From Nothopassalora personata (Eukaryota > Ascomycota > Dothideomycetes > Mycosphaerellales > Mycosphaerellaceae), in assembly GCA_033816765.1 (NCBI GenBank), contig CM066287.1, positions 62,001 to 126,000 on the forward strand: a stretch of 64,000 bases of DNA, in the 5' to 3' direction. This document shows positions 28,166-56,352 of this stretch, one piece after another (position 1 is the first letter of the stretch; every line of letters begins with the position of its first letter). Under the pieces are notes generated by a model that had not been told where the DNA came from, ran no database searches, and saw only the letters and a list, made by a program, of their open reading frames with translations. Both the position numbers and the translations under genes were made by a program.

Positions 28166-28926
28166 ATGTGTATACGCTATCTACTATACTTCGTAGCTAG
28201 TAAGTATTTACTACGCTCTTCGCTTACGATGCGCTTACTAATAGCATAGTAGACGAGTAGGATACGTGTAATAGTGTTACTACCGGCGAGTTACTTAAGA
28301 AGTGTAGGCGCTATAGAGACATTAGGCACCCCTACGTTAGTAACACTAGCGTCGCTATCGCGTAGCTAGTAGCTCGCCTACGCGCCGCTCGCGCCTAGCG
28401 CGATAAGCTTATCTAGGGGCTTAGTAACCCTATTACTAAATAAGAGTAGGATGCTCTAGACTAGTAGTACGAGCTCTATACCTAGCTAGGCGAGTAGATC
28501 CTAGAGGTAAGTACTACGCCTCGCTAGCGCTCCCTACGCTCGCCGTGTGCGGCGTACTATCGCTCCCTATGTGAATCGGCTAACCTCCTCCTAGGCTAAG
28601 AGGCAGTTCTCTACCTATAAGAATAAGCGTATAGGGGACACCCGCGTGCGCTTCGCCGGCGCCTCTACTACTACTACCCCCTCCTCCGCCGCCGCTACTA
28701 CGTCCGTAGTTCTATAGTAAGAGTAGAATAGGGCCCTTAATAAGCTCTTTGAGCTCGGCCGTACTGTAAGTACTATACGTGTCGTATACGTGTCCTATAC
28801 TAACCGTAATTATAGTTCCTATAGGCTAGAAACATCGACACTACCGCGGCCGATAGGGCCTTCTTACTACTAGCCCTACGGGGCGAGTATAATAAGGAGG
28901 ATAATAAGGAGGATAATAACGAGTAA
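28166..28926 (+). pseudogene. antisense four-exon accessory gene in chromovirus B
   Basis: This lies between pol and the 3' LTR of B but on the opposite strand. Exons 28166-28199, 28253-28506, 28595-28765 and 28825-28926 join in phase to 187 codons, about 186 aa. All introns start GTAAGT and end TAG; introns 2 and 3 have CTAAC branch points. The start is M-C-I-R-Y-L-L-Y-F-V, followed by C-N-S-V-T-T-G-E-L-L-K-K-C and a row R-Y-R-D-I-R-H-P-Y whose Tyr residues probably were Cys before RIP (TGY to TAY), giving a C-x2-C-x4-H-x-C pattern. Then comes a helical part, a Thr/Ala-rich linker and N-R-A-L-N-K-L-F-E-L-G-R. Several TAG codons stand at probable Trp positions. The same structure occurs in element A (38763-39484). 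Function unknown. Confidence 0.75.
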
Positions 28927-29118
28927 TCGCGCGCTCCGCGTATGTTAGCCGCCCGCTACGCGCCTATGTTCTATCTACGTAGCGCCGTAGTGAGCCTATA
29001 AAAGTTTATTTCTAAAATAAATACTCTTCTCTCTACTCTTCTCTCTCCTTACCTCCCTCTCTAATGTTATTACTATCGGGGGTGTTTACTCGACTAAGTA
29101 AGCGAGCCTTTTAGTCTG

Positions 29119-29148
29119 ATAGAAGACACTATAGGTTAGTGTCTTCTA
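29119..29148. other. 12-bp perfect inverted repeat with a 5-nt loop
   Basis: TAGAAGACACTA (29120-29131), loop TAGGT, TAGTGTCTTCTA (29137-29148). Located downstream of the B pol stop on the element's own strand. Confidence 0.7.
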
Positions 29149-29229
29149 TACTAGTTGTAGCTAAGTTTACTATCGGGGTAGAGGTTCTTATATCTAGCTA
29201 CTAAAGGGTTAAGGTCTAAATGCATAACC

Positions 29230-32200
29230 TATACCCTTATTTTAGCGCCTTACACTACCTTCGTAGGTACCTTATATTCGACTACTATACGTGTAGCCTT
29301 CGCGAATCCTTCCGCCGGCTTATACCGTCTTCGCTAACGCCTTATATTTAGCTACTATGCGCGTAGCATTCGCGAGTCCTTATACTAGCTCCTAGCTATT
29401 ATACTCTTCTAGCTAGCCCTTCTATCGTACTAGGTACTATACTTTACCCTTATACTTACGCTTTCCTAGTACTACCTCTACTTTATATTCCCCGTCCTTA
29501 TTAGCGAGGGCTATAGTGCCTCTATCCTTCTCGCTACCCGCGTACGGCTCGAGGAGGGATATATAGAATAAATTATAAATTCTTAAGTCGGCTAGCAGTA
29601 CTAGGCGGTACGCCTACGAACCGATAGTATCGATAATGCGGTACGGTCTAATAAACTTCGGACCTATCTTCTTCTTCGGTAATGCTAACCTTAGGTTCTT
29701 CGTAGATAATAAGACTATGTTGCCTACGCGATAGCTCTTAGCCTTATAAGTCTTATTATAGTAGCGAGTCTAATCGGCTACTACGATTTCCTAACGCTTC
29801 GTAAGCGTAGCGCCCATCTCTCGTATACGGTTAACTAAGTCTATCGCTACTAGTACCTCCCCTTCCCGGATCTCGCCTCGAGATCCTATAGGTGTTAGGG
29901 TAATCTTAGGTCTCTAACTATACGCTATTTCGAATAGGCTTATACGTAGCGTAGGGTAGACGCTATTATTACATACGAATTTAGTAATAGCTAGCTACTT
30001 CGCCTCCTCTATCTAGTTCTCGCTATAGTAATAACGGAGGTACTATTCTAAGGTTTAGTTTACCCTCTTAGTCTAGCCGTTAGTCTAAGGGTAGAAAGCT
30101 ATAGATAGCTTACGCTTTACCTACGCCTCGAAGTAGAAGTTACTCTAGAACTTACTCGTAAACACTAACCCGTAGTTACTTACTATACCCGCTAGTACAC
30201 TATAATGCCGTACGACTTCGTCTCGTAAGATCCTCGTAAGCTCCGCCGCTATGCATGTCTTAGTCGTAGGAATGTACAAGTTCATTTTAGAGTAGCGGTC
30301 GACGATTACTAGGATCGCATTATACACGCATTCTCCTCGCTTACTTAGCGGTAGGTCCGTAATAAAATCTATAGTAATTTCCTACTATAGACCGTCTAGT
30401 CTAGGTAGTAGCTATAGCTCGCCGTAGGGTCGATAGCGCCTCGCCTTCGAGGTCTAATAAGCCCTACAGTTTCTAACATACTCCCTTATATCCTTACTTA
30501 GTAATTCCTACTAGTAATAACGTCGTAGTAGCTCTTTAGTCTTTACCTTACTAAAGTGCCCTACTAGTAGGTCGTTATAATATATGTAGAGTAGCTATGC
30601 TCTTACTATATAGTCTTCGGGTACTATAATCGCGTTCCCGCGATAGACTAACCCGTCTTTTATATACTAGTCCTTAGCGTCCCCTTTGCTAGGCGCCTAC
30701 GATAAGTATACGACGTACCTATCGTCTCTCCCCTATACGATTTTTATTAGTAGTGTAAGCAGTTTACCTAGGCCGCCCTATATTATTATAGCGTACACTC
30801 TTACTAGTAGCGATCGGGTCCCCTACGGCTCGTAGGCTACTACTACTATCGTCGTCGCCTTATCCTATATCTTCTCGTAGGTAGCGGTTACGCGCCTTAC
30901 TATAGGCTCGTCCTCTCTTAATAGGGATTCCTTCTAGAAAGATAGCTTACTTTATAGCGTAGGAAGCAAGTTCGACGTCTACTGCGCTACGCGTACGTAG
31001 TTACTACGTCGCGATAGCGTATCGGCTAGGTTACTCTTCCCCGACCTATACTCTACTACGAAGTCGAAAGATTATAGAAACGTCGCTTATCGAGCTTACC
31101 TCCCGTTTAGCTACTTTACTATTATAAATCCCTATAGGTTCGTATAGTCGACTAGTACCTAAACCGTATACGATACGCCTTCGAGGTACGGTCGCTAATG
31201 CTTAAATGCCTCTACTACTACTAGTAGCTCTTAGTTATAGGTCTTATAATTGCACTCGGTAGGTATTATCTTACGAGAATAGAAGGCAATTAGATGCTAC
31301 TTAGTCCTAAATAGCTAAGAGATAATGCCTACAATCGCAAAACCTAAGGCATCCGTCTTAACCCTCGTACGTAACGAAGGATCGAAGTGCCTTAGGATAG
31401 GTGCTCCGAGGAACCTAGCTTTTAGCCGTTAGAACGCTTACTCCTCGTAAGCGGACTATATAAGAGGCCCTTACTTCTTGCTATTCTTACATCCCTTTAG
31501 TAGGTCTATTAATAGCTTTGCAATCCTCGAGTACCCTTCGATAAAGCGCCTATAGAAGTTATAGAATCCTAGGAAGGATTAAACCTTATAAAAACTCGTA
31601 GGCGTAGGCTATTCCTTGATTACGGCTACCCTACTCCTATCTATCGATACGCCTACGACGCTTACGATAAATCCTAGGAACTCGGCATTCTCCTAGAAGA
31701 AGCTATACTTCTTTAGGTTCGTAAATAGGGCGAACTTTCGTAGCCTCTCTAGTACCGCGCGTACGGCTCGTACGTGCTCCTTACGCGTTACGCTATAGAT
31801 AAGGATGTTATCTAGGTAGACTACGTAGATGTTATCTACTAACCTAGTAAGGGCCTTATTAATATACCCCTAAAAGGTAGCTAGTACGTTAGTTAACCTA
31901 AAAGGTATAACTAAGTACTCGTAGTAACCGTATCGCGTACGAAACGTAGTCTTCCACTCGTCTCCTCGCTTAATAGGAATACAGTAGTAGGCATCCTATA
32001 GGTCGATTATAGTAAAGAGCCTAGCGCCCTATAGCCTATCTAAGGTCTTACTAATTAGGGGCAGTAGGTACCGGTTCTTTACTATAATCTCATTTAGGCC
32101 TCTATAATCTATATAGAGCCTAAGAGTACTATTCTTCTTTAGCACGAATAGGATAGGCGCACCCGCCTCGCTTACGGATCGCCTAATCTACCCCTTCTCT

Positions 32201-33604
32201 ATTGCTTACGTAAGGTACTCCTTTAAGGCCTCTAGCTTAGTTAAGGACTAGTAGTATAGCGGCTTAAAAGGGAGTTTCTTTCCTTCTACGAGATTAATCG
32301 CATGCTTAACCCCGTTAGGCATCTTACGCTTCGCCTACTTATTAGGTACATATATATCTCGGAAGTCTATAAATTCTTTAGGCTACGAGGGGCCCTCTCC
32401 TTCGGGTACTACTATAGTAATAGCCCGAACACTTATCGTATAAACCTACTTTAAGCTCTCGAGATCCTTAAGGAACTCGCGTACGTTACGCTACTAAATC
32501 GTAGGCGTCTCTATACCGTAGTACTACTAGTTATCCTTATCGGCCTTTACTATCCGATTACGATACCGCTAGGGTCTACCTAAAATAACTAACGGCCTAC
32601 CTATAGGCGCTACATAGTAGATAGCGTCGCTTACGCGCTCTACTCCTACATCGTTAGCTAGTCGTACGTAAACCGTATAGGCGCCGTAGTAATGCCCCTA
32701 GTCCTACGCGTACGACTCTAGATTTAGAACCTTTATACTACTAATAGGCTATATCTAGTATCGGAGTATATACTCGTACGATACTAAGCTTAAATCTATA
32801 CCGTTATCTAGAAGAAACGTAGCCTCGCGAAAGCCCTTACGCGTCTCGACGGCGCCTCGTAAGTAACGCGCTAGACTCGTATCGACTTGCCTTAAGGGGT
32901 CTATATAGAAACTCGGACTTAGGAGCGACCCTTACCTAGTCCTCTACCTTTTCCCTATTCGCCCTTCTTAGTTAAAGCCTCGACAGTTTCTAACCTACGA
33001 ACCGCTTACGCGTCGCGGTCTTTCTATAGGTATCTATTCCGGTACTCCGTCTTATAGTAACCCTTCCTACCGTAGCTATAGTACTCTACTTTCGACTTCT
33101 AGCTAGTTAAAGACGAGCTACCGGCGTCTCGCTACTAACTCGTACCTAAGGCGCCCGGTACTTAACTCTACTTCTATTACTTTAGGCGATCGACCCGCTT
33201 ATGTACGCCCTTAGCTTTACGCTTACGACGTATATACTACCCGCGGTCGTGCCCTCCGCTACTACCTCGGCGCTTAGTACTTTGAATACGCGAGGCTAGG
33301 ACTACTAGGTCTTCTCTAGTCGTAGGGATATTATAGTAGCTAACGATAGCGGACCGTAAGCGAGGCGTAAGCTTCGCTAGTAGGTACCGTATACGTTATG
33401 CTTCCGAGTAGTCGCCTAACTAGTCCTCTATAACATCTAGCTTAGTCGTAAACTATCGCGCTATCTAGTTATCCTTCTATCTCGTAACCTCGTACTCTAA
33501 CATAACGTTAAGCACGCGATTTATAGGATCGCCGTATACGTCTCGGTAGAACTCCTTAAAGTCCTAGTATATATACCCTATAAGGTTAACGGCGCTATAG
33601 TTAG
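29230..33604 (-). pseudogene. pol and part of gag of chromovirus B
   Basis: Minus-strand remains in order from right: gag (33000-33604, continued at 40188-40690 beyond element A), protease (about 32750-32950), reverse transcriptase (about 31700-32260), RNase H (about 31050-31450), integrase (about 30050-30700, where 30145-30327 is still open and reads V-I-V-D-R-Y-S-K) and a chromodomain (about 29440-29650). Trp codons appear as TAG throughout, as RIP predicts. The chromodomain places it in the chromovirus lineage. It cannot encode active protein. Confidence 0.85.
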
Positions 33605-33800
33605 TGTAAGGGGTAGCCTAGTAGCTAACCCTTATATGTAGCCTTACATATAACATGCGGTCGCGACCGGCTACTAAGCCGCACGTAACACGTATACGTA
33701 CACCTTACGACGCGCGGTGCGTCTTAAACAAAAGGTAAGAATTAGTTCATCTACGACTAGTAGGTCGTAGGCGTACTATACATTGCGACATCCCTTAATA
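33605..33800 (+). repeat. 5' LTR of chromovirus A
   Basis: Begins TGTAAGGGGTAGCC and ends CTTAATA (ACA changed to ATA). Contains the self-primer sequence AAGAATTAG at 33737-33745. Confidence 0.9.
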
Positions 33801-33812
33801 GTTCTAATTCTT
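33801..33812 (+). promoter_or_regulatory. self-primer binding site of chromovirus A
   Basis: CTAATTCTT at 33804-33812, three bases after the LTR, is the exact reverse complement of AAGAATTAG at 33737-33745 inside the LTR. Tf1/sushi-type elements prime reverse transcription by folding the 5' end of their own RNA onto such a site; I infer the same here. Confidence 0.7.
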
Positions 33813-33859
33813 CTCTTCGTTACAATCTATACACGCTATAGAGTCCGAACGCGACGACA

Positions 33860-36800
33860 GTAGCGCTACGCCTACGGCTCCCCTAAGCCCTAGGGCCTAG
33901 TAATAAGCGAGGCGTATAGCCTTAGTCGTAAGGAGGGATGCCCTTCGGGTAGAGGTTAAGGAGAAGGGGATATAGAGGGAGATTGAATAGTTAGAGATCT
34001 TACGGAACGTAAGCGTGCCGCCGGCGGACCCTTAGGGCGAATCTAGCGGAGAACCATCCCCTACTCCCCCTCCTCTATCTATAGTAACTAACGATAATAT
34101 CGTAGCTCGAGGCGCGGCCGCATCGTATACGACACGTTTACGTCTTAAAGAACCTACGCCTTTTAGAGGGGACTCGATTAAGAAAGTACGGGTATTCCTA
34201 AGGGAGCTCCCTCTTATCTTTACCCTCTTAGGCGGCACGTATGCGACGAACGAGTTAAAGGTCCTATATAGGGTTATGTACCTAAGCGGAGAGGTAAGTA
34301 AGCGATAGTACGCTAACTATAGCGTCCTTAACCTTAAAGGGTATATATACTAGGACTTTAAGGAGTTCTATCGAGACGTATACGGTAACCCTATAAACCG
34401 CGTGCTTAACGTAATGTTAGAGTATAAGGCGGTAAAATAGAAGGATAACTAGATAGTACGTTAGTTTACGACTAAGCTAGATGTTATAGAGGATTAGTTA
34501 GGGGACTATACGGAGGCGTAACGCGTGCGACATATACTCGCTAAGCTTACGCCTAGCCTACGGTCCGTAATCGTTAAGTTTTATAACATTCTAATAACTA
34601 GAGAGGAACTAGTAATCCTAGCTTCGCGCATTAAAAGCACGGAGCGTAGTAGCGGAGGGCACGACCGCGGGTAGTATAGTCGCCGTAGGCGAGAGACTAA
34701 GGGCGACTAAGGGCGAAGCGATCGTAGCTCGAAGTAGTAGAAGTATAGTTAGGCGTCGCGCGACCCGGGTACGAGTTACTAGCGGGACGCCGGCGGATCG
34801 TCTATAACCTTCGATAGGACTAAAGCGGAGTGCTATAGATACTATAAGAAGGGTTATATTAAGACGGATTACCCGAATAGGTACCTATAGAAGGACCGTA
34901 ACGCGTAAGCGGTTCGTAGGGTAGACGCTACGAAGGCTCTAACTAAGAAGGGCAGCGACTAGGGAAAAGGTAGAGGACTAGAAGTAGGTCGCTCCTAAGT
35001 CCGAGTTTTCCTAAAGTCGACCCTTTAAGGCGAGTGGATGTGTATCTAGCGCGTTACTTACGAGGCGCAGTCGAGACTCGTAAGGGCTTTCGCGAGGCTA
35101 CGTTTCTCCTAGATGACTATACCAATCTTAGCCTAGTGTCGTAGAAGTATATACTCCGATATTAAATGCAACCTATTAATAGGGCAAGGCTACCGAAGTT
35201 AGAGTCGTATACGTATAACCTAGGGTATTACTACGGCGCCTTTACGGTTCGGCTACGACTCGCTAATAACGCGGGAGTAGAGCGCGTAAGTAACGCCATC
35301 TACTACGCGGTACCTATAGGTAGGCCATTAGTAATTTTAGGTAGACCCTAGAGGTACCGTAATCGGATCGTAAAGAGCGATTATAAGGACTAGTAGTACT
35401 ACGGTATAGAGACGCCTACGATTTAGTAGCGTAACGTACGCGAGTTCCTTAAGGATCTCGAGAGCTTAAAGTAGGTTTATGCGATAAGTGTTCGGGCTAT
35501 TACTATAGCAGTACCCGAAGGAGAGGGCCCCTCGTAGCCTAAAGAATTTGTAGACTTCCGAGATGTATACGCACCTAATAAGTAGGCGAAGCGTAAGATG
35601 CCCGACGGGGTTAAGTATGCGATTAATCTCGTTAAAGGAAAGAAACCCCCTTGTAAGCCGCTATACTACTAGTCCTTAACTAAGCTAAAGGCCTTAAAGG
35701 AGTACCTTACGTAAGTAATGGAGAAGGGGTGGATTAGGCGATCCGTAAGCGAGGCAGGTGCGCCTATCCTGTTTATACTAAAGAAGAATAGTACTCTTAG
35801 GCTCTATATAGACTACAGAGGCTTAAATGAGATTATAGTAAAGAACCGATACCCCCTGCCCCTAATTAGCGAGACGCTAGATAGGCTATTAGGTTCTAGG
35901 TTCTTTACTATAATCGATTTAAAGGACGCCTACTATCGTATCCCTATTAAGCGAGGCGATAAGTGGAAGACTACGTTTCGTACGCGATACGGACACTACG
36001 AGTACCTAGTAATGCCGTTCGGGTTAACTAACGCACTAGTAACCTTTTAAGGGTATATTAATAAGGCGCTAACCGGCTTAGTTAATGACATTTACGTAGT
36101 CTACCTAGATAATATCCTTATCTATAGCGAGACGCGTAAGGTACACGTACGAGCCGTGCGCGAGGTACTTACGAGGCTACGGAAGTTTACTCTATTCGCA
36201 AACCCTAAGAAGTGTCACTTCTTCTAGGAGAGTATAGAGTTCCTTAGGTTTATCGTAAGTGCCGTAGGCGTGTCGATAGATAGGAGTAGGGTAGCCGCTA
36301 TCGAGGAATGGCCTACACCTACGACCTTTTATAAGGTCTAGTCCTTCCTTAAGTTTTATAACTTCTACCGGCGTTTTATAGAAGGATACTTAAGGGTCTA
36401 TAAGCCCCTAACGGACCTACTAAAGGGATCTAAGGACGGTAAGAAGTAGGGCCCTCTTACGTAGACCTTAAGCGAAGAGTAGGCGTTTCGATAGCTTAAG
36501 GCCGGATTCTTAGGTGTACTAATACTTAGGGACTTCGATCCTACGCTACGTACGCGAGTCGAGACCGACGCGTTAGGTTTTGCGATCGTAGGTATTATAT
36601 CCTAATTGTTTAGTACTAAGTAGTATCCTATCGCGTTCTATTTACGTAAGATAATACTAGCCGAGTGCAACTACGAGACGTACGATTAGGAGCTACTTAT
36701 AGTAGTTAAGGCTTTTAAGCATTAGAGGCTATACTTAGAGGGCGCTACGTATGCGGTACGAGTACTAGTCGACTACGCTAACCTATAGGGCTTTATAATA

Positions 36801-38620
36801 GTAAAGTAGCTAAATGGGCGGTAAGCTCGATAGGCTACGTTCCTATAGTCTTTTAATTTTGTAGTAGAGCATCGGCCGGGTAAGACTAACCTAGCCGACG
36901 CGCCTTCGAGACGTAGTAACTACGTAGCTATAACGTAATAAACTTCGAACTTACTACCTACCTTATAAAGTAAGCTATCTTTCTAGAAGGAGTCTCTAGA
37001 AGGGATAAGCGAGCCGACGGTGAAGCGCGCGCTTACTACCTACGAGGCGATATAGGACGACATAGGCGCGGTAATAGTAGTGCGGAGAGGTAACCTTCCC
37101 TATTAAGATAAGCCGTCGTTACTATTAGTAGTATACGCTATAGTAATATAGGGTTAAGCTTATAGCTCGACGGGTAAGTTAATCCTACTCTTAATAAAGA
37201 TCGCGTAGTAGTAAGACGACTAGTATGTTATATACTTAGCGTAGGCGCTAAGCGCGAGGGACGCTAAGAGATAGCATGTAAAGGATAACCTTATGTACTA
37301 CGGAGACGCGATCGTAGTACCTAGGGATCACGCAATTAGGTCGTATCTAATTTGTATATACTACGACGACGTCCTCGCGGGTTACTTTAGAAGGACTAAG
37401 ACTAAAGAGCTATTACGACGTAATTATTAGTAGGACTCACTTAGTACGGACGTAAAGCAATACGTCTAAGCCTATAGAACCTACTAGGGTTCGAAGGCTA
37501 AATGCTATCGACCCTATAGTAGGCTATAACCGCTTCCTAGACCGGAGCGGCCGTAGTAGGAAATCACTATAGATTTTATTACGGACCTACCTCTAAGTAC
37601 GCGAGCCGGTTGCGTGTATAATACGATCCTAGTAATAGTTGATCGCTACTTAAAAATAAGCTTGTACATTCCGACGACAAAGACTTACATAGCCGTAGAG
37701 CTTACGAGGCTCCTACGAGACGAAGTCGTACGACACTATAGTGTCCCGTTAGGCATAGTAAGCGACCGAGGTCCGGTCTTTACTAGTTAGTTTTAGAGTG
37801 ACTTCTACTTCGAGGCGCGTGTAAAGCGTAAGCTATCTACGGCCTTTTACCCTTAGACTAACGGCTAAACTAAGAGGGTAAACTAAACCCTCGAACAATA
37901 TCTTCGTTATTACTATAGTAACAATTAAACTGAGTGGGCTAAGTAGCTTACAGTTACTAAATTCGTAGCTAACAATAGCATCTACCTAACACTACGGATG
38001 AGTCCGTTCGAGATAGCGTACAGTTAGCGACCTAAGATTACCCCTATACTAACTAGATCTTAAGACGAGACCTAGGGGGGGAAGTACTAGTAGCGGTAAT
38101 AGCTACGAGTCGCATGCGAAAACTACGCGCTACACTCGAGGAGCGATAGAAGGCTATAGTAGAAAGCTAGGCTCGCTACTATAATAAGATCCACTAAGCT
38201 AAGACCTACCGCGTAGGTAACTTAGTCCTATTATTAACGAAGAACCTTAAGTTAGCAGTACTAAAGAAGAAGATAGGTCCGAAGTTTATCGGCCTATACC
38301 GCATTACGGACGCTGTCGGTTCGTAGGCGTACCGCCTAGCGCTACTAGCCGACTTAAGGCTCTATAACATCTTCTATATCTCTCTCCTTAAGCCGTATAT
38401 TGGTAGCGATAAGGATAGACCCGTACCCGCTCTAGCTAATAAGGACGGAGAGTATAAGGTAGAGGTAGTGCTAGATAGGCGTAAGCGTAAGGGTAAGCTA
38501 TAGTATCTAGTCTAGTAGAAGGACTAGCTAGAGGAGTACAATAGCTAGGAACCGGCGGAGGGCCTCGCGAATGCGGATCGCATAGTAGCCGACTATAAGG
38601 CGTTAAGGAGAAGCAAATAA
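33860..38620 (+). pseudogene. gag-pol of chromovirus A
   Basis: Plus-strand remains: gag with a zinc-knuckle relic (about 34830-34880, C-Y-R-Y-Y-K-K-G-Y where Tyr stands for Cys); protease (about 35090-35200); reverse transcriptase (about 35650-36250, with 35718-36050 open and showing L-Y-I-D-Y-R-G-L-N and [11 protein letters not shown]); RNase H (36500-36900); integrase (37360-38150); and a C-terminal chromodomain (38430-38600, E-Y-K-V-E-V-V-L-D). Stops are mainly TAG at Trp positions. The same order is seen in B, D and F. Confidence 0.88.
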
Positions 38621-38762
38621 GACTAGTATAGGAGTACTAGAGCATAAATAAAACTTTTCTTAACTATAAATAAAACAAAAGCTAAAGAGTAGCGCGCCTA
38701 CTAGGGGCTACGTAGAGTAGTAGTAGGCGAGGAGCCCGCGAGTAGCGTATGAGGCGAGCGCC

Positions 38763-39484
38763 TTAGTTGTCGTCGTCGCGTAGTAACTTAGGTAGGAATG
38801 CCTAGTCGGCGGCGGTAGTATCGATGTTCTACGCCTATAGGAACTAGGACTACAGTTAGTAGGGTACACGTATACGAGGAACATGCGACTTACGGCGCGG
38901 CCGAGTTCGAATAGCCTATTAAGGGCGCGGTTCTACTCCTACTAGAGCGCGAGGGCTACGGCGGCGGGGGCGGCGGCAGTAGTAGCGGCGGCGGGGGCAC
39001 GTATACGGGTCTCCCCGGTACGCTTGTGCTTATAGGCATTAAACTGCCTAATGGCCTATAGAAAGGGTTAGCCGAAGCATAGGAGACGTACTAGAGCCCC
39101 CCCCCGCGAGTAGTAGTCGACTCGTAGGAGCGAAGTAGCGACTTACCTCCGTAATGTCGTTACCTAGCTAGGCACATAGGCGGATCTACTCTACTAGCTC
39201 CTACTACTAGAGGTCTATAGGCGCCTAGCCTATTATAGCCGTAAGGAAGTCGCGCTAGGAGCGCGCGGCGCGTAGGCGGCTTACTAGCGAGGCGATAGCG
39301 TAGCTAGTATTAGGCGCGTACTTGTGTCTATTACGCCTATAGCGGCCGCACTTCTTTAGGAGCTCGCCGGTAGTAACACTATTACAGTTATCGGCTTCGT
39401 CTAGTAAGTAGTTAGTATACGAATCGTAGGCGGCGCGCGTAGAGACTTACCCTTAACGAAGTATAGGAGGTACCGTATACACAT
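38763..39484 (-). pseudogene. antisense four-exon accessory gene in chromovirus A
   Basis: Opposite strand to A, between the chromodomain and the 3' LTR. Exons 39484-39451, 39400-39147, 39055-38894 and 38834-38763 join to 174 codons, about 173 aa. Exon 1 (34 nt), exon 2 (254 nt) and intron 3 (59 nt) have exactly the lengths found in element B; exons 3 and 4 differ only by whole codons. Donors are all GTAAGT. Branch points TACTAAC (intron 1), GCTAAC (intron 2) and TACTAAC (intron 3) are kept. The protein starts M-C-I-R-Y-L-L-Y-F-V and shares C-N-S-V-T-T-G-E-L-L-K-K-C, R-L-R-A-A-R-x-W-R-D and N-R-A-L-N-R-L-F-E-L-G-R with the B copy. TAG codons sit where Trp is likely. Function unknown. Confidence 0.78.
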
Positions 39485-39991
39485 GTTAATCCTCTACGAG
39501 AGCTTAGTAGCGGGCGAGGGCGTTAGTAGCTACGAGGGTAATGCTAGTCGCTTACGATCACTAGGCGTTCTAGGTACGTCGCGTACTAGAGCCGCCTAGC
39601 GGCGCTCGTCCTCTAAGGCGCTAGTAGTACTATCGCTACTAATACTACGGAAGGAGGCGGAGCGGCTAGAGGACGGGGGCGAGGTAGACATAATAATGAT
39701 AATGCTAGCGAGGCGCTTACGGTAAGGGTACGGTGCGGGTACGTAGTAGTAGTATAGCGGAGGTAGTGCGCTAGGGAACGTGCTAGAGAATAGGGCTAGG
39801 TTAGGCTAGAGTTTTATACCCCTAACTAGCTACGTCGGTATAGTAACTAAGCCTTACTTACCTACACCTACATAACGACACGTACGTAACCCGCATGTAG
39901 GCCGTATAGTAACTATAGTTCTAGAAGTACGTAGGAACCTCTACGTAGTAACTAGCGAGCTAAGGATAGCTCGCACGGGAGGGGAGGCAAT

Positions 39992-40187
39992 TATAAGGGG
40001 TAGCCTAGTAGCTAACCCTTACATATAGCCTTATATGTAACATGCGGTCGCGACCGGCTACTAAGCCGTACGTAACACGCATACGTACACCTTACGACGC
40101 GCGGTACGTCTTAAACAAAAGGCAAGAATTAGTTCATCTACGACTAGTAGGTCGTAGGCGTACTATATATTACGACATCCCTTAACA
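39992..40187 (+). repeat. 3' LTR of chromovirus A
   Basis: 196 bp, same length as the 5' LTR, with scattered C-to-T and G-to-A differences. Ends CTTAACA. Confidence 0.9.
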
Positions 40188-40701
40188 GTTAGTATACTAT
40201 TGCTCGCTTACCTCTCCGCTAAGGTACATAACCCTATATAGGACCTTTAATTCGTCTATCGCGTATATAGTACCTAAGAGGGTAAAGATAAGTAAGAGCT
40301 CCCGAAGGAATACCCTTACCTTCCTTATCGAATCCCCTCTAAAAGGCGTCGGCTCTTTTAGACGCGGTCGCGTCGTATACGCTATAGCTACGCCTCGTAC
40401 TACAATATTATCGTTAGTAGTTATAGAGATAGAGGTAGGGGTTATAGTAGGGAGGTAATCTTCTCTCCTCCCTCCTATACGCTCTAGAGGCGGTACGCTT
40501 ATAGCGCGTAAGATCTCTAGCCGCTCGATCTCCCGCTATATCTCTTACTCTTTAATCTTAGCCCGTAAGGCCTCTCTTCTCGTAACTAAGGCTACACGAC
40601 GCGCCTACTACTATGCTCTAGGGCTTAGGGGCGGCGTAGGCGACTCGCCGTCGTGTACGTCGCGATCGGGCTCTATAGCGTGTATAGATTATAACGAAGG
40701 G

Positions 40702-40713
40702 AAGCTTTAGAAC
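40702..40713 (-). promoter_or_regulatory. self-primer binding site of chromovirus B
   Basis: On the minus strand, CTAAAGCTT (40702-40710) lies three bases after the 5' LTR and is the exact complement of AAGCTTTAG inside that LTR (40786-40794). The geometry is as in element A but with a different core sequence. Confidence 0.7.
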
Positions 40714-40911
40714 TATAAGGGCCGTAAGGCTATAAGGGGATGTCGTAATGTATAGCACGCCTACGATCTTCTAATTGTAGATAAACTAAAGCTTACTTCC
40801 TTCTATTAACGCTATACGCGTCTCCTAGTGTACGTATACGCGTTACGTGCGGTATACTAAGCCGGGTATAGCCGCATTACATATAAGGGTTAGCTATAGG
40901 CTATCCTTACA
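40714..40911 (-). repeat. 5' LTR of chromovirus B
   Basis: 198 bp, pairs with 27442-27639. Outer end TTACA. Confidence 0.85.
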
Positions 40912-41204
40912 TTATATTCCTTAAGTCTATCTCTTTAATATTAATACCTAGGTCCTTCTTAAAGTCCTTCTATAGTACACTCTTTATTATTAAGTTAAAG
41001 AGGCGGTTCGTAATATAGTATAAAAAATCTATAGCCAGGGGCTAGAGATTCTATAGTAAGCTAGAGTCTACTATTATGTCTCGTTCTAGGGCTAGTCTTA
41101 AAAGAGAGATAAGTTAAGTTACGTAGCGGTATTCTTTAGAGAGGCTAAAGCGAGCTAAGCGAAGATAAATAATTAGGATAAGAGTATATTCCAATTAGTA
41201 AGAT
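40912..41204. other. RIP-mutated sequence, unassigned
   Basis: Low in CpA and TpG like its neighbours. No motif or repeat partner recognised in the window. Confidence 0.35.
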
Positions 41205-41431
41205 AGTAACATAAGTTAAACGTATCGAAACTATAAGGAATTCTTAGCGTTCCTAAATATAAAGGAGATTCGTAGATCTCGGTAATTAGTCTAATTATTC
41301 TAAGTATAAGTAGCCTAATTAGTCTAAGTATAAGTAGTCTAATCGCCCTAAGTCTAAGCGCTTAGGTAGGATAAGTTACGTGCTTGTCTCGTTATTATAA
41401 TTCTAGGGTCTATAGGAATCATTCCGTAACA
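41205..41431 (-). repeat. LTR fragment of the F family
   Basis: Matches about 58,700-58,927 of the F-family LTR and ends at the same CCGTAACA terminus. It is out of order with the next fragment. Confidence 0.75.
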
Positions 41432-41536
41432 ATAGTATCGTTTACGGTCTAAGGTTATCGGGCTCTACTTACTTTACTAGGGGCGGGTGTTCCCCGTTTA
41501 CTCTATCGGTCTCCTATCGTATAGGGCGTTTAAAGC

Positions 41537-41790
41537 TATTAGGTTTAGTATAACCTAATAATATTATAAGTTAAGAAGATAAGCTTAATCGGTTTTATTC
41601 TCGGGCTAATAAGACGTCGAGGGAGAGTAATAAAGTAGTAGTTGTCTTAGTCTTATAAAGACTTAAGAAACAATATAGTAGAGGTTAGGTTACGGTATAT
41701 TCTAAATAGTAATATTAAATAGTAAGTTAAACGCCTTAAAACTGTAGGGGATTCTTAGCGTTCCTAAATATAAAGGAGATAGCATTACTA
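41537..41790 (-). repeat. second LTR fragment of the F family
   Basis: Starts TATTAGGTTTAGTATAACCT like 58524 onward and ends inside the LTR at TAAAGGAGAT. The ~105 bp separating it from the first fragment are unassigned. Confidence 0.75.
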
Positions 41791-41851
41791 TACTTATAGA
41801 TTACTAAGTTACTAGTAAGTGAGTAATTATAGATTACTAAGTTACTAGTAA

Positions 41852-42226
41852 TGTCTACCAACCACCCTATGTAGGCCTGTCCGAGTTGTGGTGGTATGGA
41901 GCGGTGCTTGCGTAAGCAGGGGTATTTGCCGGTCCTGGGACCGGGAAATCAGGTCACGTGACGAGCAGCGCAGTAGCCAGATAAAACAAGAGGATTGGCG
42001 GACCCTAAACCCCTATACCCTCTACTCGAGAGGTATGAATTGAATTGTTGCCTTGATGCTACGCTTACAATACTCAACTGCGCAGTATATATCTCAATGG
42101 CCATACCAGGTCCTGCTGGCTTGCCCAAATGTCCAATCAAACCTAAATGAAAAAGGGGCAAGTTGGACCCAAGGGACCCCTTCCCAAACCCAAACCCAAG
42201 GTCAACACAACCCATTAGTCGTCAAT
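41852..42226 (-). repeat. 3' LTR of element C
   Basis: 375 bp. On the plus strand it starts TGTCTACCAACC and ends GTCAAT. Contains CACGTG at 41955-41960 and the near-palindrome at 41928-41953. Confidence 0.92.
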
Positions 42227-42700
42227 ATATCCTCCCCCATTACGAACCTGTCCTCAGGTTCCAAAGCAGTAAGCCCGGGCCTACCATTCAGCTTGACATA
42301 CAAGATGTCAGGCAATCCGTGATGGTGACGTCAATAATCCGCGACTCGCGCCCGTCGCACTGCGTTGACGTATGCCACGAGACTGGCGAGGGGTTGGGCA
42401 GCTATGTCAGCATCAATCGAACAGGCCAGATGGTCGAACAATGTAAGCGCCATTCATGAGACAAGTGAGTGTCAGTACCAGTAACCTGATAAATCCAAAG
42501 ACGAGTCCATCGCGTGGCCAGAAAGTGAGTCAAGGGAAGATAAGTGACCATAAGAAACAAGTAAGATCTAAGGACCAGAAGCACCCGTACCCGAAGCATC
42601 AACCAGAACCAGAACCAGAATCAGAACCAGAAACCCATAGGCTACAGCTGTAGCCGGAAATCAACCAGAAACCAGGAGCCCATAAACCCGCACCAACCAC
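42227..42700 (-). other. 3' untranslated region of element C
   Basis: The minus-strand purine run GGGGGAGGATAT next to the LTR is the likely polypurine tract. A (CCAGAA)n-like repeat occupies about 42600-42636. No gene is seen. Confidence 0.6.
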
Positions 42701-45604
42701 TCAGTTCCACTCATTCTCACACAACTCCTTTGTCCAGACCCACTCGTTGTCGTGGCCAACACCAATCTCACTAGACGCGTCCCCAAGTGGCTGGTTGGTG
42801 AAGTTCCCATGGTAGTTGCGGAAGACGTTCTCATCACGCCCTTCGCTTGTGAAGCACATCTGCTCGAGAGCAGTGACCAAGCTGAGCTGCTTGTCCATCA
42901 ACTTCACAGCTCGGACGCGCCATTCATGCATCTTCTTGTGGAAGAGCTCCGAGTCTGGGCGGACCGCAGCATCAAGCCACCTTCTAGCATCAAGGATGAC
43001 TTCGTTGTCGTTCCAGGACTTCAAACCCGCTAGGGCATCGGACAGGGGGCTGATGCCACTGAGGTGTACGGCCGCAGGGAAAGGATGGCCAGGTACTGGG
43101 CGTCGATACTCAAACCCTGCAGCGCTCTCACTTGGCGTCTTGAAGTCACGATGGAGGTCCATCACCTGGTGCATGCTCCAGCTTCTCTGGAGTTCAAGAT
43201 AGTCATCGTCGCGGATCGCGATAAAGCAAGGGTCAATCTGACGCAGCGTCTTCTTGTGTGCGGCCTGCCTCATTGGAACGCCTGCAGTGGTCACCCGCAT
43301 TTGCCCAGCGCTTAGGTCCTCTCTGAACCAGCTGATGCTGTTCTTGCTCAGGTAATTCTGAACCCCAACCGAGAAGAAACGCTTAAATCGGCCGTCTTCT
43401 ATGCAGTCGTTGATCTGGCACCACTGGATGAACTCTGCAGCATTCCCTTGCTTATGAAAACCGTGTAAAAACTCCGGCCCACTGGTGCCCTCTGAGTCAA
43501 GAGAGTACAGCATGTTGAGCCGGTTGCTAGTCCAGTAGTTTTCAATTTCGAGGTTCAAGTCGACCCCAGCATGCTGCACCATGGTGTTCGCATCACCCTC
43601 CTGATGAGCCCTGTCAAAGCTGAAAATCGTAGGCCTGGGGAAGGAGATGAACCGAGTGCAGTGTTGAGGGTGCAGCGCCACTTGCAAGAGCCACAGCCCG
43701 GGGTCTTGTCGCATGATCTGTTGGCTCAGAGAATACCACATGTTCTGGCAGACGCCGCCGTTGCTGACCTTGTTCAACTCTCGCAGGTGCCATCGGTACA
43801 CGTCGAATTCTCGACTCATCATCTCTCTGACTGTTTTAACCCGCGGCGCTAGTTCAGCGTCATTGTACCAGTACAGCATGTTGCCATTGATGTAGGTACC
43901 GGTGCCATCGAGATCGGCTTGGTCAGCTTCATCAATGCCAAATTTGTCGAGGATCTGATTGTAGTTGGCATGCGTGACGATGCCACTCGTGGTGCCGGCT
44001 TTGCCTCGAACACGGAGGCAGCCAAGCGGGTTGACAGTCTTCTGACCACGCTTGTCAGGGCGAAACCACGACCCATTCTTCACCTTGATAGCTGAAAAAC
44101 TCTTGCCTTCAAAGAGCCAGTCTTGGACCTTGAGCGCGCGCTCACACAGGGTATTGGTGGTGATACCGGGATTCGTGACGAAGTGGAGGGCCTTGTGGCA
44201 GAAATCTCGGACATGCTGATCGCACATCACAGCGCTAACCTTGCCATCCCTCTCAAGAACCTGCGAGACCGCATATTCGAGCATCTCAAGGCCCGCCATC
44301 CGGTGCTCAGGTAGCCAGTCAATGCCATCCACATCAATCGAGTTCCTGAACTTGATGCCACAGTACCGCTCATTGCAGGTGCAGTTGGCGCGCTTGATCC
44401 GGAGGGCCTCGTCTTCCTGCAGGATCTGATCCTTGAAGACTGATACATCCCTGATCACAGCCGAAGGTGACATGGTGAGTATCGGATTGCCACCCTCAGT
44501 CAGGGCCGGAGTGGATCGTGGGGTGCCAACCGGTGTACCCAGCGGACTGCCTTCGCGTATGGGTGCGCCGTCCAGCGTTCGGTTAGGCGAGGATTGAGCA
44601 GGCGCAGTCATGCCCTCACCTATGCTCTCGCTCATGCGGAGCTGCTCAAGTCGACTCGACTTGCGACCGCCTCTCGATGGGACTGCAGGCTGGGTAGAGG
44701 CTGGTGGAGTTGGCGTGGTAGTCTTTGCACGTCCTTTGCCTTTGCCACCCGGTGGTGGCTGAGTCTGTTGCTGGCCAGATGGTCCAGGTTGACCTGTGCT
44801 GTCCTCTGGGGACGCGGACTTCTCAGTGATAGTACCCTCCATGAAGTATGGAAGGCCATCCTCATAGACGGCTAGGCGGTGTCTTCTGATGATCTCCCTG
44901 CTCTCAGCCGACTGCGGATCAATGCTGCGTGCTTCAGCCTCCCTGTCGCACCGGGTAAGATCACCAGGCTCCAGAATTCGCTTGCGATCTATGCCCCTGC
45001 GGCCGATCCTCATACGCCAGATCAATGCCCTCTGAATTCTGCCAACAGCCTTGCTGTAGTCTGGGTACTTGTTGATGAAGGCCGTGAACTGGCGGCGCCC
45101 ACTGTCAGTGCTGCAAAGCTCGGAGATGACGCGTCGATCAAGAATCTTGTTGTCCATCTGCTGTGGCCAGTGGCGGGTAAGCGTGGCGCGAAGAGTCCTC
45201 TCTCGGTTACGAATCTCTGAACCGGTCTTGCGAATCTTGCCGACGATGGGAAACAAGACATCGAGCTTCCTGTTACCAAGGAATTCATCCTGGTAGGTCT
45301 TGCCCATGCCGCTCTCAACTTCCTCGAAAAACAGGTCAACCCAGACGGAGCAGTCTTCGAACACCTTCTCGAAGCCCTTGCAGAAGTCCTTCAACACCTC
45401 AACCCGCTTCTGAGGACTGAGCTCTCGGAACATGACATTAGCGGCGGACTTCGGCGTGTTCGTGTTGGCAAGGACATGCTTGACGTTGTCCGGCAAGCGA
45501 AGGGACTCGAACAAGGTCTGAGGTGGGCGGGTGAGCCCAGTAACAGTGCTAGTGAGCGCTGTGCTCGAGCCAGCCGGGCGTGACGATGGACCAGCTGAAG
45601 CCAT
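42701..45604 (-). CDS. third ORF of element C, unknown protein of 967 aa
   Basis: A full-length open frame downstream of pol, in the place where env lies in some LTR elements, but with no signal peptide or membrane helix. Residues about 1-240 are helical and basic (repeated R-R-x and I-R-N-R-E-R-T-L-R). About 265-390 is a Pro/Ser/Thr-rich low-complexity linker. From about 395 comes a folded-looking region with a Cys cluster (C-T-C-N-E-R-Y-C near 406), further Cys/His and many Trp residues. I recognise no domain. An intact 2.9-kb frame in an element with nearly identical LTRs argues for selection on the protein. Its likely promoter region (45605-46205) repeats LTR motifs, so it may be transcribed separately. 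Candidates such as a nucleic-acid-binding factor or an anti-silencing protein are speculation. Confidence 0.85.
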   Translation of the reverse strand: MASAGPSSRPAGSSTALTSTVTGLTRPPQTLFESLRLPDNVKHVLANTNTPKSAANVMFRELSPQKRVEVLKDFCKGFEKVFEDCSVWVDLFFEEVESGMGKTYQDEFLGNRKLDVLFPIVGKIRKTGSEIRNRERTLRATLTRHWPQQMDNKILDRRVISELCSTDSGRRQFTAFINKYPDYSKAVGRIQRALIWRMRIGRRGIDRKRILEPGDLTRCDREAEARSIDPQSAESREIIRRHRLAVYEDGLPYFMEGTITEKSASPEDSTGQPGPSGQQQTQPPPGGKGKGRAKTTTPTPPASTQPAVPSRGGRKSSRLEQLRMSESIGEGMTAPAQSSPNRTLDGAPIREGSPLGTPVGTPRSTPALTEGGNPILTMSPSAVIRDVSVFKDQILQEDEALRIKRANCTCNERYCGIKFRNSIDVDGIDWLPEHRMAGLEMLEYAVSQVLERDGKVSAVMCDQHVRDFCHKALHFVTNPGITTNTLCERALKVQDWLFEGKSFSAIKVKNGSWFRPDKRGQKTVNPLGCLRVRGKAGTTSGIVTHANYNQILDKFGIDEADQADLDGTGTYINGNMLYWYNDAELAPRVKTVREMMSREFDVYRWHLRELNKVSNGGVCQNMWYSLSQQIMRQDPGLWLLQVALHPQHCTRFISFPRPTIFSFDRAHQEGDANTMVQHAGVDLNLEIENYWTSNRLNMLYSLDSEGTSGPEFLHGFHKQGNAAEFIQWCQINDCIEDGRFKRFFSVGVQNYLSKNSISWFREDLSAGQMRVTTAGVPMRQAAHKKTLRQIDPCFIAIRDDDYLELQRSWSMHQVMDLHRDFKTPSESAAGFEYRRPVPGHPFPAAVHLSGISPLSDALAGLKSWNDNEVILDARRWLDAAVRPDSELFHKKMHEWRVRAVKLMDKQLSLVTALEQMCFTSEGRDENVFRNYHGNFTNQPLGDASSEIGVGHDNEWVWTKELCENEWN

Positions 45605-46205
45605 GATAACTAGGATTCACTATCAGTGAGATCGTAAGAGCTGGCTATCTCGTGGTGCCACTCTGGAGTGTTGGTAAGCTTTGAAAGCTTGGTATCGGGG
45701 TGGGCTTTGAAGGTCAAGGTCGTGAAGAGAGAGAGGCCAGAGAACCGTCTGATGTGTGGTGGTAGGTGGATGTGTTGGTGGTTCTGGTGATGGTGCTAGT
45801 GTTTGAAGAAAAAGAGAGGAAGTAGCAGGCAGAGAGCTGCGCTTAAGGATGCCTCTCAGCGTATGTCCCTGTGACCGTTGCAAGGCAGCAGCGCCGAGAC
45901 CGGTCTCATAAGTGGCAAGAGCAGTGCCATGGAGATCACACTGAAGGTCCGATGGCCCTGCATGTGACCGAAAACCAGTGCTGGTGACCACCTAGGTGAG
46001 CATTCGGCAGGGGGCATGCCACGCTGTCACGTGATCCGATTTACCGGTCCCGGGACCGGTAAATGTGACTCTACTAACTGAGGTCCAACCAAGGCAAGAA
46101 CACCCCATGAAGTGAAGTCCAGATAACCGAATCGGCTTAACAAACTGAAGGGCATGCGCAACACATGCCTAAGGGAAGTGAACTCCGTACGCCATTGCCA
46201 ACTGA
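45605..46205 (-). promoter_or_regulatory. intergenic region between pol and ORF3 of element C, possible internal promoter
   Basis: Contains a perfect 26-bp palindrome (46039-46064; core CCGGTCCCGGGACCGG) next to CACGTG (46028-46033). The LTRs carry the same pair of elements: near-palindrome 41928-41953 with CACGTG 41955-41960, and 53188-53213 with 53215-53220. Shared transcription-factor sites are inference. Confidence 0.5.
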
Positions 46206-49200
46206 TTAGTTCTCAGCCTCGATCCTGCTGAACTGTGAAATTTCGGCTGCAGAAAGGTCATGAGGCCTGACCCATAGCTTCTTGGATTCCGGTTCAGGAT
46301 ACGATCCCCTTTCGTCAATTCCTACAGGTAGCACGTCTTCGTCGGCGATGGGCTCGATCTCGTTCGAATCACTGCTGTCTTCGCTATCAGCGACTTCTCC
46401 CTCCCCCATTACGAGATCGATCCCATCATCCAGGCCTGGTACTCCTATGTTATCCGGGCGAAGCTCTGGAACTAGCTTAAGGTTTTCTCGTGCCTGAACT
46501 CCCTTCATTGGCGTGCCATCAAGTTCCTCAAGAATATAGGTACCAAACTTCCTGGAGACACTGGACACCCGATATGGACCTTGCCATCGGTAACCGATCT
46601 TGCGTGAGAAGTCATCCTTATATGGCTTGTCGAACCTCATGACAAGGTCGCCCTTCTGGAAACCAGCAAAGTCAACATTTCGGTGAGAATCGAAGTAGTC
46701 CTTGCTAAGTTCTCTTAGTCGCTTCCTTCGAGCATGCAGCTCTTCCAAACTAAGGTCTCGAGCCTGGAGTTGACGCGCACGTATGGCAAGCAGGTCCTCA
46801 GTCGTTCTCACCGATCCCCATTGATAATTCGCCCACGTCGGGTACTCAACCTCAATTGGCAGAATCGTGCGATGGCCATACAGGACCTGAGCCGGCGTCA
46901 TTCCAGTAGTACGACAGGTCGTGGTCCTATCAGCCCATAACACAGCGGGTACCCATTGCTCCCATCCGCGGTATGTGTTCCTTGTAAGCTTTGCTAACGC
47001 TGCAAGAATCGGACGGTGCCCAACCTCGACCGGAGCATTAGACTGCGGATGGTACGGTGATATTCGGATCCTTCGAACACCAAGTCCTACGAGCAACCGC
47101 TCAACCTCAGCCGCATGAACCGTAGCGTTATCAAGCACAATTTCAGCACAGCAGCCGTGCCTACAGAAGACATCTTCGTATAGAAACTTGGCAACTGTCT
47201 TCGAGCTGGGAGGTGCCCTTGTCACTCTAGCCTCGATCCAGTTGCTGAGTGCTTCGCGCGCAACTAGGAGGTATCCATTTTTGTGCACCTGGACGGGGTC
47301 CGAGTACCACTTCTCACCAATGACCTGAGGGCTCGATGAGTGAAGCTCACCAGCGCGCTGGTTGCCTTCGCGAAACCTACAAGGAGCACAACTTCGAACC
47401 CACGCAGAGACATCGGCGAAGCACCCGTCCCAGTAATACCGATCGGAAATAAGGTTGTACACGACCTCAGCGCTGCGATGACCGTGTCTTTCATGGCATT
47501 CTATGACGATCTCCTTCTGAGCCTCATCATCGTCAATCACAAGTTGCAACGGTGCTCCTCGGCGCTTCTGGAAGAACAGCAATTGGTCTCGGACAAAGAA
47601 GTTGACGCTCTTCTTCACCAGCCGCCGGTACTCAGCACGGGTAACACCATCGGGCCGGGTCCTGGTTTCTATAACCTGAGCAAGCTGCTGAGAGCCCTCA
47701 GAATATTGGTCCCCGAGATGTCGTGTTTTCTGGATTTCAACTGGATAGGTGTCGACCGGCTCCGGGTACCTGAACAGCTTATCATCAATCATCTGGTCGA
47801 CTTCGTCTTCGTCAGCTTTCCTGGGTTCTTGAGGTGTAGAGGGCCTTCGAGACAGGGCATCTGGGCCAGTGTGTCTAGTCCCCGCAACGTGCTTTACCTC
47901 GAACGTGAACAACCTGATCCATGCGACCCACCGGGCCATTGCCGAGTTTGGCAGGTCCGAAGCCGGCCGGTTAAGCTGCCATACAAGTGTCTTGGCATCA
48001 ACCTCAAGGACAAAATCAACGCCAGTGATATATCTCTGGATCTTCTTAAGCCCCTTAAGGACCCCAAGGCATTCCCGCTTCCCAGCATCATATCTGGATT
48101 CTGACGCGCTCCAGATTCCACTCTCATACCGCACCGGGTGACGCCGTCGGGTACTGTCCATTGATTCTTGAGAAACGATACATCCCCATCCAGTGCCGCT
48201 AGCATCAACTGAGACAAAGATGGACCCAGCACCAGGTGAGTAGCAGAGGGTAACTAAGGCTGGAGACTGCACAAGGTACCTAGCAACCTCTTCTTTTGAG
48301 AACTGCTCATTTTCTGTCCAGGTGAACTCGGCGTCCTTCTTCAGCAGTTTGTACATTGGTCGAGCGATGATAACGAACCAGGGAATCCATATCCGGAAGT
48401 ACACACACAGCCCCACATAGGTGCGGACCTCCTTGATACAGGTAGGCGTAGGCCAATCCAGGATCTTGGCCACAACCTTTGGGTCAGGATAGCGACCATC
48501 CGGGCCAGTAACGTACCCAACAATCTTGAGCTTTTCGTATAACCATTGGGATTTGCCTCCAGCAACTACCGCACCAGCTCTTTCCAGGTCAGCAAGAACC
48601 AGATCCAGGGAAACGATGTGCTCAACGACCCATTTTCTCAACCCAGGCTCTAGTTCGGCATTCCCATAGTCCTCAGTTGGTCCCTTAATACCGATGTCAT
48701 CGAGAAACGGCTTCGCTCGATGCGAGATATGATCAAGCAGAATCTTTGTTACCGCACGCACGAACTGAGCAACTGAATTGGTAGCTCCTTGAGGCAGAGT
48801 CGTGTTGCGTACTAGGCCAAGAGGGGTCATGAAGGCTGTTAAGTCCCGGCAGGACTCATCCAAAGTAATCTGATCATAACCTGAAAACAGGTCCACAAGT
48901 GAAGCGACTCGGCACCCGGCAAAATCCTCTGAGAAGCTATCCGTGTCCGGTGGAATGTTAGCATCGCGCATAGTAACCTCATTCAGGAGCACAGCTGAGT
49001 TGATCAACCGATATGGCACATCGCTTCCAGAGGCATCAACCTTCTTTGCGACCAGGAACCAGCTATTGGAATAAGCCCCTTGTGAGTATTCTAGGATGTT
49101 ATTCTTGATCCGGGCTCTAATCATGCGCTCAACAATTGCCCTAAGACTTGGGTGCAACCGGATAGGGCGTGCCTGCCATGGCCTATGAGGGACCGTGTTA

Positions 49201-49992
49201 ATCTTCTGAGGTGGCACGACGTCGTGCCTAATTTGCCTCATGTGACTGAAATCCCAAGCGAGGACTGCCTCCCGGTTGTAGAGCATCTCATCGAATAAGG
49301 CCCTTTCCATTGGCAATAGCTTGATGCCAACCTTGATTGAGGTAAGTCGTTCTGGAGTGATCCGGATACCTCGCTCAATACTTGAGAATTTCTTAGTCAA
49401 GTACTTCCCATCAAACGGACCTTGTCCTTCAGGCATCTTGGATTCCAGGTACAGTGCCCTGCGCTTCCATTCCATATCTCCCTCAACTCGTGATTCTGGG
49501 CGTTCGTGAACGCTCGCGTCCACTGGCTTTTTCTTGTCCGCCTTACGCTTGTACATCGTGAAGACCTGCGGCATCCTAATGTTAGCTATATGTAGGCCTG
49601 CTTGTTGCTTCCGTGCCTGAGCATTCAATGCAGATTGTCTCAGGATCTCGGAGGGCCAGTCCCCTTGAACTGAATAAACGTTAGCAATAGAATCTCCCTC
49701 AAACGCGCCTGTTCCAATTTCTGCAACTCGTTCCTTTGCTACAGCAGTCCTAAGCAATCCCAATAAGTGAGCTGAATGGTTGCTAGGCGTTAGAGCCTTG
49801 CCGGGTTCCTGCAGATGCGTCGTGTCGTGGTCGTATCCGTTTTCCTCACTATAGCTATTTACCGGTCCCGGGACCGGCAAATCAAAGTCCGAGGTTTCTC
49901 CGAGATAGTGCGAGAACCTCACTGATTTTGTCAAACCCGGCTTTAGCAAATCGGTGGGTTGAGCGCCGTAACTCAACCCACCATTCCATTTC
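46206..49992 (-). CDS. pol polyprotein of element C (RT, RNase H, integrase)
   Basis: The frame is open from about 50027, but that codon is GTG and no ATG stands near the start, so it must be expressed as a fusion by -1 frameshifting from gag (signal at 49953-49994). Domains by residue from 50027: reverse transcriptase about 290-480, with the active-site box as F-L-D-D rather than Y-x-D-D; RNase H about 600-720 (V-S-V-D-A-S-G-T-G-W-G); integrase zinc domain (H...H...C-A-P-C) about 850-885; a D,D,E catalytic core (V-L-D-N, then V-E-V-G-H-R); and a GPY-type end (Y-R-W-Q-G-P-Y-R-V). There is no chromodomain, unlike A, B and F; the tail is acidic. The order RT-RNase H-IN is that of Ty3/gypsy. Confidence 0.93.
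49857..49882. repeat. near-perfect 26-bp palindrome inside pol
   Basis: Same palindrome as 46039-46064 with one base different. Here it is also coding (L-P-V-P-G-P-V). Confidence 0.85.
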
Positions 49993-49994
49993 CC
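49953..49994 (-). promoter_or_regulatory. -1 ribosomal frameshift signal between gag and pol
   Basis: The minus-strand heptamer G-GGA-AAT (49994-49988) is in the correct gag phase (X XXY YYZ). It is followed by a 5-nt spacer (GGAAT) and an 11-bp perfect stem (GGTGGGTTGAG, 49982-49972, with CTCAACCCACC, 49963-49953) around an 8-nt loop. Gag stops five codons after the heptamer, inside the stem. A -1 slip leads directly into W-N-G-G-L-S-Y-G of pol. Confidence 0.88.
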
Positions 49995-56351: not shown

Positions 56352-56352
56352 T

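Follow-up and report, generated by a model that had tools for sequence, protein, structure and literature searches.

Elements that copy themselves through RNA are not expected to carry genes with introns, and the locus described here raises the question of how such a gene could persist in them. It lies in a 64,000-nucleotide stretch of the genome of the fungus Nothopassalora personata (assembly GCA_033816765.1, contig CM066287.1, positions 62,001–126,000 of the forward strand), hereafter the window, and comprises two Ty3/gypsy chromoviruses, elements A and B, each with a candidate gene on the strand opposite to gag-pol. We hold it probable, at about 0.82, that this is a spliced antisense protein gene of a fungal chromovirus. 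Judged from its sequence, the gene is real, agrees with splicing in every sequence feature tested, and has been kept by selection. Both elements have been mutated by repeat-induced point mutation (RIP); intact relatives of element A, termed family C, occur in the same genome. In the list below, exons 2–4 follow the gene model and tblastn searches with the family C protein.

33605–40187, plus strand: element A, a RIP-mutated chromovirus inserted into element B (edges placed by eye)
about 33605–33800 and about 39992–40187: long terminal repeats (LTRs) of element A (edges placed by eye)
33600–33604 and 40188–40192: target duplications of element A, GTTAG
39451–39691, minus strand: element A, exon 1 in its extended form, 241 nt, from an upstream in-frame ATG that aligns near the family C ATG
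39147–39400, minus strand: element A, exon 2, 254 nt
38894–39055, minus strand: element A, exon 3, 162 nt
38763–38834, minus strand: element A, exon 4 including the stop codon, 72 nt
27442–40911, minus strand: element B, a chromovirus belonging to a second family, mutated by RIP and interrupted by element A (edges placed by eye)
28055–28199, plus strand: element B, exon 1 in its extended form, 145 nt, with a start less certain than that of A because the N-terminus aligns poorly
28253–28506, plus strand: element B, exon 2, 254 nt
28595–28765, plus strand: element B, exon 3, 171 nt
28825–28926, plus strand: element B, exon 4 including the stop codon, 102 nt

Element A sits in the 5′ part of element B in the opposite orientation, the two forming a nested pair of LTR retrotransposons; a target duplication was searched for around element B and not found. 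CA and TG are depleted and TA is enriched in both elements, the pattern left by RIP. A third, B-like pol fragment (93–94% identical to B) occupies 53605–58523 of the window; tblastn with the family C protein found no exon of the antisense gene there, and at 58523, where the fragment ends, repeats start that recur at 41173–41780.

The initial annotation of the window, made from its letters alone, had described a four-exon gene opposite to pol in both elements, and this model was reproduced at the same positions. GTAAGT stands at all six donors, and TAG ends all six introns of the two copies; A and B agree in the lengths of the short first exon (34 nt, as then noted), of exon 2 (254 nt) and of intron 3 (59 nt), and the size differences in exons 3 and 4, of 9 and 30 nt, respectively, amount to whole codons. 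Two of its details need revision. The 34-nt exon (39484–39451, minus strand, in A; 28166–28199, plus strand, in B), whose ATG had been taken as the gene start, is only the tail of a longer exon 1, which measures from the upstream ATG 241 nt in A (start at 39691), 145 nt in B (start at 28055) and 250 nt in C. The reading of TAG as tryptophan throughout finds no support in the intact relatives. Under the short model, A encodes 173 amino acids and is interrupted in frame by 12 stops, each of them TAG, and B encodes 186 and has 13, either TAG or TAA; the absence of TGA from both is what is expected of RIP. With exon 1 extended, there are 15 stops in 242 codons of A and 14 in 223 codons of B.

Unmutated copies, which the initial annotation had proposed should be sought, were found in the same genome (54.5 Mb, 40 contigs searched), with their introns retained. 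When A exon 2 was scored at the best 150 of 494 candidate places, 127 had 5–7 TAG stops and 23 had none, and a 31-mer from unmutated exon 2 matched exactly at 26 places (reversed control, 0). Five copies of family C, a close relative of A, were read (L061–L065); they are 99.0–99.7% identical to L061 over the aligned pieces, and the spliced frame is open in four of the five. L064 keeps the full set of four exons, with 245 open codons after splicing, whereas L061, L062 and L065 each have three exons and an open frame of 209 codons. The difference is a 167-bp deletion relative to L064, common to L061, L062, L063 and L065, which removes the 59-nt intron 3 together with 108 coding bases (36 codons) and is frame-neutral only if intron 3 is spliced out. 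Short GCCGAC repeats lie at its borders; as it is not a precise intron loss, it gives no pointer to the copying of a spliced RNA. The exon-3 tail was found in two of the 26 family C places in a search allowing up to two mismatches, the other 24 being without a match, and the shortened protein seems to have spread during a recent burst of family C. Read without splicing, the L064 frame meets a stop 18 codons beyond the first donor, and none of the intron lengths (50, 91 and 59) is divisible by three. Intact homologues with these introns, whose lack the initial annotation had named as fatal to the gene, are therefore present in family C.

The carrier is a Ty3/gypsy chromovirus: pieces of one family C element, the one that holds L061, match the RVT_1, RT_RNaseH, Integrase_H2C2, rve and Chromo models, giving the order reverse transcriptase (RT), RNase H, integrase and a C-terminal chromodomain, and LTRs of the form TG...CA with a short target duplication were found for C (GGTAG) and A (GTTAG). 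A CCHC-like knuckle is visible in the translated gag frame of C, for which Pfam gave no match. The L061 element has mutually identical LTRs of 197 bp and the 5-bp target duplication GGTAG, from which it follows that the introns survived a recent transposition. The stop codons of pol and of the antisense gene are convergent, with 134 bp between them. At its other end, the antisense ATG is about 300 bp away from the LTR edge, on the internal side, and is preceded at a distance of about 120 nt by a CATAAAA box, which suggests a candidate internal promoter. A bacterial-type promoter scan was set aside as having no bearing on a fungal gene.

These features are best explained by an accessory gene of a chromovirus lineage that lies beyond the chromodomain and before the 3′ LTR, on the strand opposite to gag-pol. 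We infer that the gene is transcribed and spliced in the cell: host RNA polymerase II would start at a promoter within the interval of about 300 bp that separates the gene from the 3′ LTR, the host spliceosome would remove three introns (or two, in the recent form that is more common), and translation would yield a product of about 245 (or 209) residues. The introns would be retained because reverse transcription uses RNA of the opposite strand, where the splice signals go unread; the keeping of three introns, still present in a young insertion, is most simply accounted for by their lying on the uncopied strand. A and B are RIP-mutated copies of two families, and C, the relative of A, was amplified later, its gene intact in most of the copies read.

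Whether the frame is coding was examined with transversions, chosen because RIP makes only transitions, by comparing B and C at four-fold sites and at first and second codon positions from the Met-Cys onward. In the gene frame, transversions are present at 30 of 89 four-fold sites and at 58 of 352 first and second positions (corrected ratio 0.36, one-sided p = 4e-4). None of the remaining five frames reached significance (lowest p, 0.087): the ratios were 0.92 and 2.64 for the antisense frames and 0.78, 0.64 and 1.90 for those in the sense direction. Pol of the same B/C pair, as a yardstick, gave 0.26. At the level of sequence this demonstrates purifying selection on the encoded frame, in the gene frame alone, and net exon indels among A, B and C are multiples of three. 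The claim of a spliced antisense protein-coding gene common to two families, and constrained before RIP, is supported by these results and by the gene model in A and B. As a separate observation, the frequency of B/C transversions at four-fold sites of the antisense gene (30/89) is about double that of pol (94/535), which may be read either as faster neutral change or as a mosaic origin of the 3′ part.

The stops in A are caused by RIP. C-to-T changes at CpA make up 142 of the 183 differences between A and C, and by site C-to-T changes affect 142/184 CpA, 6/182 CpC, 5/159 CpT and 3/220 CpG, i.e. 77% of CpA sites vs 1–3% of other C sites. DNA searches with the A and B gene regions were followed to the best 40 of 527 and of 505 candidates, window copies included, and splice sites were counted at 30 A-type and 30 B-type loci with sequence, each set including the window's own copy. 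At introns 1, 2 and 3 the donor is GT in 29/30, 30/30 and 30/30 A-type loci and in 30/30, 30/30 and 6/30 B-type loci (pooled, 59/60, 60/60 and 36/60); the intron 3 donor is AT in 24 of the 30 B-type loci, a RIP-type change. The acceptor is AG at each of the three introns in all 60. Under the short model there are 11–13 in-frame stops per A copy and 13–14 per B copy, all TAG or TAA; the ATG of the initial annotation reads ATA in 20/30 A and 18/30 B loci, and a frame-breaking exon indel of 1–2 nt is present in three of the 60 (L020, L044 and L045). Recent, near-unmutated copies coexist with the heavily RIP-mutated majority of the scored places (127/150) in the one lineage of A and C, which suggests that RIP has weakened or been escaped. 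RIP may still be lightly active, as L063 of family C has two C-to-T changes at CpA.

The family C protein (245 or 209 residues) has a basic N-terminus rich in serine and proline, which aligns poorly between B and C, followed by a six-cysteine motif, C-X2-C-X11-C-X11-C-X2-C-X6-C, spanning exons 1 and 2; in A and B these six positions are all cysteine or RIP-type tyrosine. The remainder was drawn as helices by a weak single-sequence model. The canonical Zn2Cys6 (Gal4-type) spacing is C-X2-C-X6-C-X5-12-C-X2-C-X6-8-C. The motif resembles it in having six cysteines that end in C-X2-C-X6-C, with basic residues, a basic stretch before and helices after, and differs in its second spacing, X11 instead of X6; with spacings of X2-X11-X11-X2-X6 and no match to Pfam Zn_clus, it cannot be assigned to that class. 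The basic stretch, the cysteines and the helices, together with the analogy to plant and retroviral antisense genes, lead us to propose tentatively, as the most likely role, a nuclear, zinc-stabilised nucleic-acid-binding regulator of the element. Two Pfam rows, Rpn3_C (E 0.046) and Herpes_UL92 (E 0.21), fell far below the curated cut-offs and were rejected, and a fold search with an AlphaFold model of exon 2 was dropped, the model being too weak.

Several results weigh against this account. A check of the translated gene against protein databases, as the initial annotation had advised, brought no relative: no homologue was found in Pfam (above cut-off), NCBIfam, the PDB, a protein collection (queried with an alignment as well) or viral contigs, and no zinc-binding family matched the protein. 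The protein collection was empty even for the genome's own intact frame (164 open codons) and may lack this fungus or fungal element genes, so its empty result says little. Confidence in the AlphaFold model built from exon 2 alone is low (mean pLDDT 62.5). All of the best 150 of 500 places scored with B exon 2 contained at least one stop, leaving family B without an intact copy among them; L063, a three-exon copy, is not open, having a single stop in exon 1 in a RIP context; and the pol frame of L061 shifts once close to a stretch of C residues, either through an assembly error or through a true defect, which leaves the competence of this LTR-identical copy in doubt. Transversions between A and C do not separate the codon positions (3/135 four-fold sites vs 6/484 first and second positions, p 0.42), a comparison dropped as selection evidence since most of the differences are RIP. 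Finally, exons do not stand above introns in raw identity between C and B (exons 1–4: 44, 59, 68 and 61%; introns 1–3: 70, 55 and 61%). This last result is what would be seen if the gene model were an artefact, produced by chance splice-like signals in two RIP-mutated sequences that can be aligned, and RIP would presumably enrich the TA-rich motifs concerned. The initial annotation had itself offered to give up the gene if A and B matched no better here than in non-coding regions; raw identity partly bears that out, and coding and non-coding sequence are told apart by the codon-position test alone, and whole-gene identity was dropped as a coding test because RIP distorts it. As the unmutated copies have the same introns and an open spliced frame, an artefact is barely credible.

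A transcript without a protein is a rival reading: a spliced antisense non-coding RNA might regulate the element, for instance as a source for RNA interference or by disturbing transcription of gag-pol, on which the gene converges, its frame being incidental. Spliced antisense transcripts of transposable elements without apparent coding capacity are described in the available text on Blumeria hordei (PMC10648671). The frame-specific codon selection, the open spliced frames of 209 and 245 codons and the net indels in multiples of three all speak against it, and we consider it improbable, although a regulatory RNA effect could exist alongside a protein. It is less far-fetched, if still unlikely, that a host gene was captured with its introns, antisense, by an ancestral element and rides as a passenger. 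Reverse-oriented capture would preserve introns, and short spliceosomal introns with a basic cysteine-rich product would be typical of fungal nuclear genes. Presence in two diverged families, and a ratio (0.36) near that of pol (0.26), would not be expected of a passenger; no host paralogue was found in the scored candidate lists, which were filled by element copies. As an ancient origin, capture is possible and compatible with the antisense accessory gene that we favour.

Elsewhere in the window, an apparently intact LTR element occupies 41849–53487 on the minus strand, with flanking repeats of 379 bp that are 99.7% identical. It has open reading frames (ORFs) of 970 amino acids (a weak aspartyl protease match) and 1273 amino acids (RT-RNase H-integrase), and a further ORF of 967 amino acids downstream of pol, in the same sense, with no Pfam match. 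At 56718–57115 a 79-bp unit is present in five perfect tandem copies, which yields repetitive ORFs in several frames.

Antisense genes are known from other LTR elements. The initial annotation could name no spliced one described from fungal chromoviruses; the wider view that these have no described antisense gene does not hold: citing passages attribute to Zhao et al. 2011 (Virology) the antisense gene brtn of Boty-like elements of Botrytis cinerea (PMC8365987, PMC7264820, PMC4227169, PMC5987419). By these descriptions Boty is a fungal element with gag, RT, IN and a chromodomain (PMC4227169), and brtn, which is situated between pol and the 3′ LTR, runs antisense to gag-pol (PMC7264820), as here; the comparison is by description only, and the citing passages on brtn mention no introns, against three in the present gene. 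In plants, the available text describes antisense ORFs in Retand (with a TRP28 domain), Grande (gene23), RIRE2 and PvRetro13 (PMC11963269, PMC7264820), those of Retand coding for TRP28 in 97% of clusters (PMC11963269) and GENE23 being reported as nuclear with its own promoter (PMC11963269, PMC7264820). Retand is there a non-chromovirus lineage (PMC11963269); the present carrier is a chromovirus, and its protein has no match to TRP28 (PF04195). The word intron is absent from the main text of both papers, and the word antisense from the available text of a survey of fungal LTR elements (PMC3248453); spliced antisense transcripts have been described from a fungus, the powdery mildew Blumeria hordei, as non-coding (PMC10648671). 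Searches of the open-licence literature brought up no description of a spliced, protein-coding antisense gene from an LTR element of a fungus. What is new here is the introns, the six-cysteine motif and the codon-level selection, an antisense gene in a fungal chromovirus being already known. The intact copies make the usually untestable question of what role the antisense accessory genes of LTR elements have accessible, in one fungus, to work on RNA and protein.

HBZ, the antisense product of human T-cell leukaemia virus type 1 (HTLV-1), is a bZIP factor, one isoform of which is spliced. According to the available text it localises to the nucleus (PMC11963269), and the antisense promoter of HTLV-1 lies within the 3′ LTR (PMC7264820). 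The gene described here is likewise antisense at the 3′ end of a retroelement and would likewise encode a nuclear regulatory protein; it differs in that its candidate promoter is internal and its predicted protein is cysteine-rich. Somewhat more doubtful than the regulatory role itself, and offered as a possibility, is the complete picture: a chromovirus lineage with a spliced antisense nuclear regulator of zinc-cluster type, whose introns would be kept by its reverse orientation and which would have been maintained by selection in no fewer than two families and through a recent burst, making it a counterpart in logic of HBZ.
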